NCBI GenBank assembly: GCA_012517115.1
Contig: JAAYVP010000441.1
Span: 1 to 32,131 of the forward strand
From: Brooklawnia sp.
GTDB lineage: Bacteria; Actinomycetota; Actinomycetes; Propionibacteriales; Propionibacteriaceae
Reading direction: 5' to 3'
Length of the DNA: 32,131 nucleotides
How positions within the stretch are numbered: position 1 is the stretch's first letter; the number at the start of each line of letters is the position of its first letter. The translations under genes were made by a program, and so were the position numbers. Of this stretch, positions 24,915-27,149 are shown in pieces. The notes under the pieces are model-generated. The model did not search any database, was not told where the DNA came from, and was given only the letters and a program-made list of their open reading frames with translations.

Positions 24915-26102
24915 TCAGGCCCCTGGTGGCACCGGCAATGCCGCCAGGTCTCGATCTAGCAACTGCCGGGCGTGGGCCTCCTGCTCAGCACTTCGCCAGG
25001 GCACCTTCTGGAACTCGCTGAGGGTGGCATCGGCCACCGCCCATAGCCCGGCCTCGCTGATCAGCCCCAACTGTCGAACCGCGATCGCCGCGCCGACGTA
25101 GGTATCGAAGAAGACGATCCCCCGCTCGGCGCAGCGGGCTCGCGAACTCGCGTCAGTGCTCACAACGTCGTGGATGAGCACCGCATCAACACTACCGGCG
25201 AACTCGGTCAGCAGGCGCTCCGCGACCCGCACGTCCCCCTGACCCGAGTCGCCGATGAAAACCAGCCGATACTCCGGGAACAGGGCGTGGTAGTGGTTGA
25301 TGTTCTGGATCTTCTTCTCAGCCATGCCGGCATGGCTGAGAAGATGCAGCATCGAGCCCGTCAGCATGGACGACACCGAAACTCCGGCCCCACGCAGCTT
25401 CTTGCGGGTCTGGTCCTCAACCCAGCCGAACAGGTCGGCCGGTCGCGCCGTGATGAACGTCAGGTCGCCGAAAGATCTGGGTTTCGAGTCCGGCCCGAGA
25501 TCGAGGGCCTCCCAGAGCGCCACCACTCCCGGGTAGACAAGGCCCTTTGGGAAGCGCCGATCGTGCAGGCTGCAGATCGTGGTGTCGTCGATATCAGACA
25601 GCACCTTCGCTTCAAGATCGCTCACCAGTGTGGCCTGGACGGCAATGTGCTCGAGGATCTGCTGCCGAATCTCGTCACTGTCGATGTCTCGGTAGATGAG
25701 TTCTTCGAGGTCATTGTGGTTCGGAGTGGCGTCGATCAGGTTCTTCAGCACCGTCAAATCGACCCCCTGCACGTCCGTGAACAGGTCTCGGACGACGAGT
25801 TCGTCCCGTCTTGATGTGTGTCCGGTCTGTAACGCATGCACAAGAGCTGCCCGAGCCGGCAGATCAAGCTCACCACGCCGGGCAACGCCCAACAGGTCGC
25901 GCAGTTCGCCACGGTGGCTGCGACCGAACCGAACAGTAGACAAGACGGCCACCAGCCGATCGGTCAGCTTAGGCTCGGCCAGCATCTGGTTCAGTTCCTC
26001 AGCGTCCGCCTTTGCCAGCAACTCGAAGATGGCAGGCCGAGTTTGGGCGTTGGGACGGCCGGATAGCAATTCGCACAGCAACCCGACCGCGGATGCCTTC
26101 AC
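24915..26102 (-). CDS. App1-type (DUF2183) HAD phosphatase, possible phosphatidate phosphatase
   Basis: A 395-residue protein. The N-terminal about 160 residues are helical and not recognised. From about 165 it matches the App1 catalytic domain: AKVLSDIDDTTICS carries the HAD nucleophile motif (Asp170, Asp172), FITARP (216-221) is motif II, KKIQNINHY (263-271) supplies Lys, and VFIGDSGQGD (281-290) is motif IV. Yeast App1 is a magnesium-dependent phosphatidate phosphatase; bacterial members are little studied. The GTG overlaps the last base of the upstream DAG-kinase stop, with GAGGGGG just before it, so both are made from one message. Together they could run a diacylglycerol-phosphatidate cycle (inference). 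No membrane helix or signal peptide is present. Confidence 0.85.
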   Translation of the reverse strand: MKASAVGLLCELLSGRPNAQTRPAIFELLAKADAEELNQMLAEPKLTDRLVAVLSTVRFGRSHRGELRDLLGVARRGELDLPARAALVHALQTGHTSRRDELVVRDLFTDVQGVDLTVLKNLIDATPNHNDLEELIYRDIDSDEIRQQILEHIAVQATLVSDLEAKVLSDIDDTTICSLHDRRFPKGLVYPGVVALWEALDLGPDSKPRSFGDLTFITARPADLFGWVEDQTRKKLRGAGVSVSSMLTGSMLHLLSHAGMAEKKIQNINHYHALFPEYRLVFIGDSGQGDVRVAERLLTEFAGSVDAVLIHDVVSTDASSRARCAERGIVFFDTYVGAAIAVRQLGLISEAGLWAVADATLSEFQKVPWRSAEQEAHARQLLDRDLAALPVPPGA

Positions 26103-27082
26103 TACGCCCCCTCATCGCGTGCCGGCAGATGCACCCGCAGGCCGCGCGGTTGGATCCAGGCCCGCAATGACGTGACGCGCGTCACGACATCACCGTCAAG
26201 TTGCACAGGCGCGGGGTCTGCGGGGCGTACCCGCAGTCGTTCCGCCCGGCGATAGCGCAATGCCGCGACTTCCATGTCGGGCTTGATGACGCCTTTGGCA
26301 GCCACCGGCAGCCACTGCAGCCAGTGCCTGATCGGTACCTCAAGAACCTCCATCAACCCGTCGTCGGAGCGGGCCTGCGGGTACACGACCAGACCGCCAG
26401 GCGCTTCTCTGATCAGACCAGCCAGCACCGACCAGCTCACGATGCTGCGCTCGGGCTGGTCATCCACCTTGATTTGCATGGGCAGCGCCGGGCGGGTTGC
26501 CTGCCGGACGCCCTGCAGGGCGTAGGCCGCCGCCCCGATCCGCACCTTGGCCTTCAAATCTGTTCGCGCGACGGTTTCGGCGTCCCGGCCGATGCCAGCC
26601 ATGGTGAGGAACGGTTCATTGAGCTCGCGGCCGTCGACGGTCTGCAGCCTGGCCCAGCCGAGGTCCAAATCGGTGCTGGGGCCGGACAGTGCAATCGACA
26701 CCTTGGTGCGCAGGTCGAGACCGGTAAGGCCAAGGTTGTAGGCCAGCACATTGCCAGACCCCAGCGCGACGATGCCAAGCCGGATCCCGGTGCCCGCCAG
26801 TTCGCGGGCCACCTGGCGCACGGTCCCGTCACCCCCGATCACCACCACGACGTCGGCTCCGGCCTCAATGGCCTGACGGGCCTGCTGGGAGCCCGGCTCT
26901 TCCCGGGTGGTCGCGACCGATCGCGGAGCATCGATCCCCATCCGATAGCACTGGCCGACGACTTCGGCGACCGCGCTGCTGGCCCGCCTGGCCAGCGGGT
27001 TGACCACCACGAAGGGCCGCACTGCGGCTGGGGTCTGCAGCACGGACGCGCTGGCTACCCAAGACTGGCGAGTCCTCATCAC
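26102..27082 (-). CDS. Diacylglycerol kinase family lipid kinase
   Basis: A 326-residue soluble member of the DAG-kinase/sphingosine-kinase/YegS group. The nucleotide motif VVVIGGDGTVRQVA lies at 79-92 with GGDGT at 83-87. The second motif, VALGSGNVLAYNLGL, is a variant of the usual PxGTxNDFA. FVVVNPLAR near 24-32 is the N-terminal strand. The C-terminal beta domain (about 150-320) includes the MAGIGRDAETV segment. It probably phosphorylates diacylglycerol or a related lipid. The start is GTG 27082 or ATG 27079; neither has a ribosome binding site. It is the first gene of the lipid operon and faces the SPFH gene across the palindrome at 27108. Confidence 0.88.
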   Translation of the reverse strand: MMRTRQSWVASASVLQTPAAVRPFVVVNPLARRASSAVAEVVGQCYRMGIDAPRSVATTREEPGSQQARQAIEAGADVVVVIGGDGTVRQVARELAGTGIRLGIVALGSGNVLAYNLGLTGLDLRTKVSIALSGPSTDLDLGWARLQTVDGRELNEPFLTMAGIGRDAETVARTDLKAKVRIGAAAYALQGVRQATRPALPMQIKVDDQPERSIVSWSVLAGLIREAPGGLVVYPQARSDDGLMEVLEVPIRHWLQWLPVAAKGVIKPDMEVAALRYRRAERLRVRPADPAPVQLDGDVVTRVTSLRAWIQPRGLRVHLPARDEGA

Positions 27083-27107
27083 GAGACATATTGTGCCCGA
27101 AGATAAA

Positions 27108-27128
27108 GTGATATCATTTTGATATCAC
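27108..27128. promoter_or_regulatory. Perfect inverted repeat, probable operator between the DAG-kinase and SPFH genes
   Basis: GTGATATCA (27108-27116), a TTT spacer and the exact complement (27120-27128) form a 9-bp perfect palindrome. It is the most A/T-rich spot in the region. TATCTT (27100-27105, minus strand) next to it could be the DAG-kinase -10, and TATCAT (27112-27117) inside it could be the SPFH -10. A bound regulator would block both. Each half contains the self-complementary core TGATATCA. The ribbon-helix-helix protein encoded in the SPFH operon is the obvious candidate binder. Confidence 0.7.
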
Positions 27129-27149
27129 CCTCTTCGGAAAGGAATCGTG

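Follow-up and report, generated by a model that had tools for sequence, protein, structure and literature searches.

The overlapping genes and their surroundings

The window, a 32,131-nucleotide stretch of DNA from Brooklawnia sp. analysed here as a whole, holds adjacent genes for a lipid kinase and a phosphatase. The DAGK_cat/YegS-type kinase gene (26102..27082, minus strand) encodes 326 amino acids from a GTG start, and an ATG three bases downstream is also possible. The gene of a divergent APP1_cat phosphatase of the HAD type (24915..26102, minus strand) encodes 395 amino acids, likewise from GTG. They overlap in a TAGTG (26100..26104, minus strand), where the kinase stop TAG (26104-26102) and the phosphatase start GTG (26102-26100) have base 26102 in common, exactly as originally predicted.

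Since 4 of the 14 same-strand junctions in the window overlap, this overlap is ordinary and carries little weight, and we rejected it as evidence on its own for functional pairing. The kinase/phosphatase junctions of relatives show similar overlaps of TAGTG, ATGA, GTGA, TGATG or 8 bp. Judged by sequence, the two genes would make a small co-translated unit, which we hold with the same slight preference as the antagonistic-pair reading it belongs to.

Upstream, between the kinase gene and a divergent Band 7/SPFH gene, lies a perfect palindrome, GTGATATCA-TTT-TGATATCAC, that has no other exact match in the genome. Its inner arms span 27108-27128 and its outer arms 27097-27103 and 27131-27137. Because similar sites precede Band 7 in four relatives (loci L031, L032, L049 and L143), it is probably the operator of Band 7, and we take it to be possibly a site for a PadR-like regulator. 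It was rejected as a switch for the pair, as relatives whose kinase start is far off still have it beside Band 7.

The kinase belongs to the predicted family, with DAGK_cat at 67.2 bits and YegS_C at 35.8 bits in Pfam and with intact catalytic motifs. The nucleotide-binding GGDGT motif (residues 83-87; 26822..26836, minus strand) is invariant in the 23 linked kinases and 13 solo orthologues. In the DGD motif D296-D298 (26189..26197, minus strand), D296 and G297 are invariant and D298 occurs in 22 of 23 linked and 13 of 13 solo kinases. Both motifs are thus retained by the solo kinases.

The kinase aligns with solved DgkB/YegS-type structures in the PDB. Like the DgkB, YegS and BmrU kinases (2qv7, 2bon, 3t5p and 4wer), it combines DAGK_cat and YegS_C with GGDGT and DDG motifs. 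Unlike them, it stands in a separate actinobacterial subclade and scores below the curated cut-off of every specific lipid-kinase model in NCBIfam, the best being PRK13057 with 117 of 274 bits. The window's genome has further DAGK_cat enzymes besides the linked one.

The phosphatase matches APP1_cat (PF09949, the former DUF2183) with 40.3 bits against a cut-off of 27.1. The domain covers residues 166-311 (25170..25607, minus strand) and is matched by all 22 aligned members, for which no other family is convincing. HAD motifs I, III and IV are intact throughout these members. Motif I (D170-T174; 25581..25595, minus strand) reads DIDDT here and DFDDT or DVDDT elsewhere, with D170, D172, D173 and T174 invariant. 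Motif III is the invariant K264 (25311..25313, minus strand), and motif IV GDSGQGD (G284-D290; 25233..25253, minus strand) has variants, with G284, D285 and D290 invariant.

Motif II, T218-A-R220 (25443..25451, minus strand), sets the enzyme apart. T218 and R220 are invariant and the motif is T-(A/S)-R-P in all 22 members, with T-(A/S)-R also in three relatives outside the family (G871, G652 and G637). By contrast, three canonical bacterial APP1 proteins that we examined lack it and have STGS or SSSP instead, neither of which the phosphatase carries. One of them is encoded elsewhere in the window's own genome (contig C307) and scores 169 bits, and canonical bacterial proteins score 158-169 bits, against 40 for the linked phosphatase.

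Because of this motif II, we file the phosphatase as a divergent APP1 subfamily and not as a canonical member. The predicted App1 type holds for the catalytic domain and its HAD motifs, but not in the canonical sense. With yeast App1 and the canonical bacterial proteins the phosphatase shares the Pfam catalytic domain and motifs I, III and IV, and it differs from them by a helical N-terminal domain and other spacing after motifs I and II. The PDB holds no sequence relative of it, and a fold search with the full phosphatase model gave no match at E<=0.001. A plasmid match was also looked for, and none was found.

About 160 N-terminal residues had been called unrecognised, and indeed the first ~165 have no Pfam assignment, APP1_cat starting at 166. 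This N-terminal domain (residues 1-165; 25608..26102, minus strand) has ten predicted helices in an AlphaFold2 model with pLDDT of 89.7. It has no PDB relative by sequence profile or fold search at E<=0.001, and among 346 sampled genomes of the class its profile matches nothing but proteins of this type. R75, K120, D131, E133 and H152 are its invariant polar residues. The phosphatase of G871 is without the first ~80 residues and keeps the segment around LKN...DLE...H, so the conserved core would be about residues 105-160.

Linkage and phylogeny of the pair

We surveyed 199 Propionibacteriaceae genomes of 29 genera and mapped the surroundings of the matches for both proteins. Beyond the family, the survey covered ~645 genomes from the order and phylum as well as 346 from the class, all in the same phylum. 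The genomes are partly fragmentary, and absences in incomplete assemblies are weak evidence. Whole-genome profile searches were needed, as a single-sequence scan of public genome contigs gave one close relative only. Among named records the closest is an uncultured Propionibacterium MAG with 84% identity, which points to the Propionibacteriaceae as the family of the genome.

Phosphatase relatives occur in 24 of the 199 family genomes (6 of the 29 genera), and a member of the kinase subclade lies within ~6 kb of the phosphatase in 23 of these 24. The linkage is far above chance. A neighbourhood survey for kinase partners had been proposed along with the original prediction, and its outcome is a conserved linkage, not the lack of one.

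The kinase is directly upstream of the phosphatase on the same strand in 19 genomes, with a gap of at most ~70 bp, and the genes overlap in ~11 of these, some start codons being uncertain. In three genomes (G163, G162 and G158) the two lie on one strand with ~0.8 to 6 kb between them, and in another (G157) they are divergent and ~0.4 kb apart. The only phosphatase-carrying family genome without a nearby kinase is G125. There the C-terminal half of the phosphatase is in frame with an apparent ATP synthase beta subunit start (L053:5757-7895, contig G125:C249), and the contig is probably chimeric.

Two further loci are irregular. One phosphatase (L054, contig G159:C49) is split over two frames below an open kinase frame, by recent pseudogene formation or sequencing error. 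A second and more divergent copy with ~36% identity (L048:7831-8985) has no adjoining kinase in G114, a genome that also has a linked pair.

The flanking genes, named by eye from their sequences, vary by genus. Transketolase, citrate synthase and Band 7 flank the pair in the window's genus (g1) and in g8; g12 has an IMP-dehydrogenase-like gene and a penicillin-binding protein, g16 a Rieske-like protein and UvrA, and g10 and g21 have others again. Hence the pair is kept together through changing surroundings. The linkage also extends to another family, as the N-terminal-domain profile found a member in G871, whose kinase and phosphatase genes overlap by ATGA. In G652 and G637, which are also outside the family, a phosphatase is present without a close kinase.

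We placed the kinases in a tree of 44 DAGK_cat proteins, made by a quick method and with some long branches. Linked kinases group with their solo orthologues in a single clade, split from eight paralogues (SH-aLRT 97), with the G871 kinase at its base. Linked and solo kinases are interleaved in it, with at least four state changes on the starred branches. At least 13 related genomes have the kinase and no phosphatase, and in several of them the synteny is conserved. In four species of the window's genus (G001, G004, G005 and G007) it adjoins citrate synthase and the phosphatase is absent.

Thus the pair is not obligate, and the phosphatase looks like an accessory partner of a kinase that related lineages retain alone. 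The simplest reading is a pair ancestral to the kinase subclade, followed by several losses of the phosphatase, although change counts alone cannot separate loss from gain. At two loci (L148 and L149, in G217 and G218) an isochorismatase-like gene sits beside the kinase, at the place of the phosphatase in related g8 genomes.

Likeness to known lipid kinases and phosphatases

Another lipid phosphatase is coupled to this kinase family in actinobacteria. Fused PAP2-DAGK_cat-YegS_C proteins are encoded in G018, G016, G114 and G154 (L170:955-2625, L171:758-2272, L172:1102-3402 and L173:725-2272), and the first three of these genomes carry both a fusion and the kinase/APP1-type pair. A prephenate-dehydratase-like gene is beside the fusion in three of the four loci. 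A DAGK_cat-PAP2 protein of Mycobacterium smegmatis, MSMEG_0633, raises diacylglycerol (DAG) when expressed in E. coli (PMC8225852).

The fusions resemble the pair in that a DAGK_cat kinase domain is coupled to a phosphatase. They differ in that an integral-membrane PAP2 is within one polypeptide, whereas the pair has an apparently soluble APP1-family HAD enzyme from a separate overlapping gene. With the fusions in existence too, the combination of lipid kinase and phosphatase is a recurrent one with two unrelated phosphatase folds.

PAP2 (PF01569) itself is undetected in the window's genome, whose assembly is 92% complete. It is undetected in seven of the eight genomes of the genus and present in 155 of 198 family genomes. 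We considered that the phosphatase replaced PAP2 and rejected this, since the absence of PAP2 fails to track the phosphatase across the family. The two coexist in g12, g16, g10 and g21 genomes, and the g1 species without the phosphatase are also without PAP2. The PAP2 distribution is weak context only.

The motifs of the phosphatase also recall Pah1/lipin, with which it has motif I DxDxT and motif II T-x-R in common. According to a 2025 study of yeast Pah1, phosphatidate (PA) phosphatase activity requires both Thr-443 and Arg-445 of motif II, and the arginine is conserved in the Pah1/lipin proteins and not in other HAD enzymes (PMC12357310). The invariant T218 and R220 fit the lipin-type T/S-x-R. 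Since that study ties the arginine to PA phosphatase, the T-x-R of the subfamily is a lead to a lipid phosphate substrate. The correspondence is one of motif position and alignment.

On the other side, motif IV of Pah1 has Asn where the phosphatase has Asp. None of the 22 members has a lipin-family Pfam match at E<=10, and hence no N-LIP domain is detected. We therefore do not accept the lipin family as the home of the phosphatase, and the T-x-R likeness may be convergent.

A proposed antagonistic pair and its alternatives

Our slightly favoured reading, held at little better than even confidence, is a co-translated antagonistic pair that acts on one lipid of the inner leaflet, most likely DAG/phosphatidate. 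The kinase would add a phosphate to the membrane lipid, most likely turning diacylglycerol into phosphatidate, and the phosphatase would take it off again. Neither protein has a strongly hydrophobic stretch (the highest 19-residue mean is ~1.36), so both are expected to be peripheral enzymes of the cytoplasmic side, in contrast to the PAP2 phosphatases, which are integral to the membrane. The pair would set the ratio of DAG to phosphatidate in the inner leaflet and not switch it.

We infer these substrates, the antagonism, the localisation and the physiological role from the linkage and its persistence in changed surroundings and in G871, the kinase clade, the invariant HAD motifs and the precedent of the PAP2-DAGK fusions. 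The lack of detectable PAP2 in the window's genome and the T-x-R match to Pah1 add to this. The modest APP1_cat score, the kinase alone in at least 13 genomes, the unlinked phosphatases of G652 and G637 and the failure of PAP2 absence to track the phosphatase are counted against it. Such a pair, if constitutive, would also be a futile cycle in the absence of regulation.

The strongest alternative, a minor but serious one, keeps the antagonism and changes the lipid to a glycolipid, a polyprenol, a ceramide-like lipid or another lipid alcohol. The DAGK_cat/YegS families are broad enough for it and the kinase is below every specific NCBIfam cut-off. Moreover, the linked kinases have their own subclade, and housekeeping phosphorylation of DAG could be left to the genome's other DAGK_cat enzymes. 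What speaks for DAG/phosphatidate instead is the lipin-type motif II together with the precedent of the PAP2-DAGK fusions.

Less probable still, the two enzymes take consecutive steps of phospholipid turnover and do not oppose each other. The phosphatase would act on another phospholipid phosphate, e.g. phosphatidylglycerol phosphate, and the kinase would recycle DAG. Linkage alone does not show opposition and HAD phosphatases are broad in substrate, and a kinase kept without the phosphatase in many lineages is expected of a mere shared pathway. However, the motif II likeness to PA phosphatases and the PAP2-DAGK fusions suggest that the phosphatase undoes what the kinase does.

A true regulatory switch is improbable. 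In it the N-terminal domain would respond to a signal and thereby activate or silence the phosphatase in opposition to the kinase. Such a sensor would suit a conserved helical domain with five invariant polar residues, but the domain has no ligand-binding homology and its first ~80 residues are missing in G871. Co-translation, moreover, would lead to joint, not alternate, production. The original prediction had read the overlap as a possible switch between the two lipids, and this part is not supported: with overlapping translation the two enzymes are made at the same time, related genomes retain the kinase in the absence of the phosphatase, and we found neither a pair-specific regulatory element nor opposite regulation.

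Slightly less likely still is a chance neighbourhood of the lipid kinase and a HAD phosphatase for a soluble substrate. The modest APP1_cat similarity and the phosphatase alone in two genomes would permit it, but the linkage outlasts changes of neighbours in several genera and in a second family, and the genes stay near each other even where separated or divergent.

A fuller version of the antagonistic pair is doubtful and we offer it tentatively. It would be a cytosolic unit of the actinobacteria dedicated to a DAG/phosphatidate cycle, composed of the kinase subclade and an undescribed APP1 subfamily with a lipin-type arginine and a new helical domain that works on the phosphatase at the membrane, and its origin would be independent of the PAP2-DAGK fusions.

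Bacterial APP1/DUF2183 proteins are almost undescribed, in line with the original remark that an App1 domain paired with a bacterial lipid kinase is little described: in open-licence PubMed Central, DUF2183 is scarcely mentioned and PF09949 is not. The conserved partner kinase suggests a specific kind of substrate for them, and the shared motif II could help to tell which HAD enzymes are lipid phosphate phosphatases. If the antagonistic pair is true, coupling of a DAG-type kinase to a phosphatase arose at least twice in the actinobacteria, with unrelated folds, and this repeated coupling would point to the control of DAG/phosphatidate as a selected trait.
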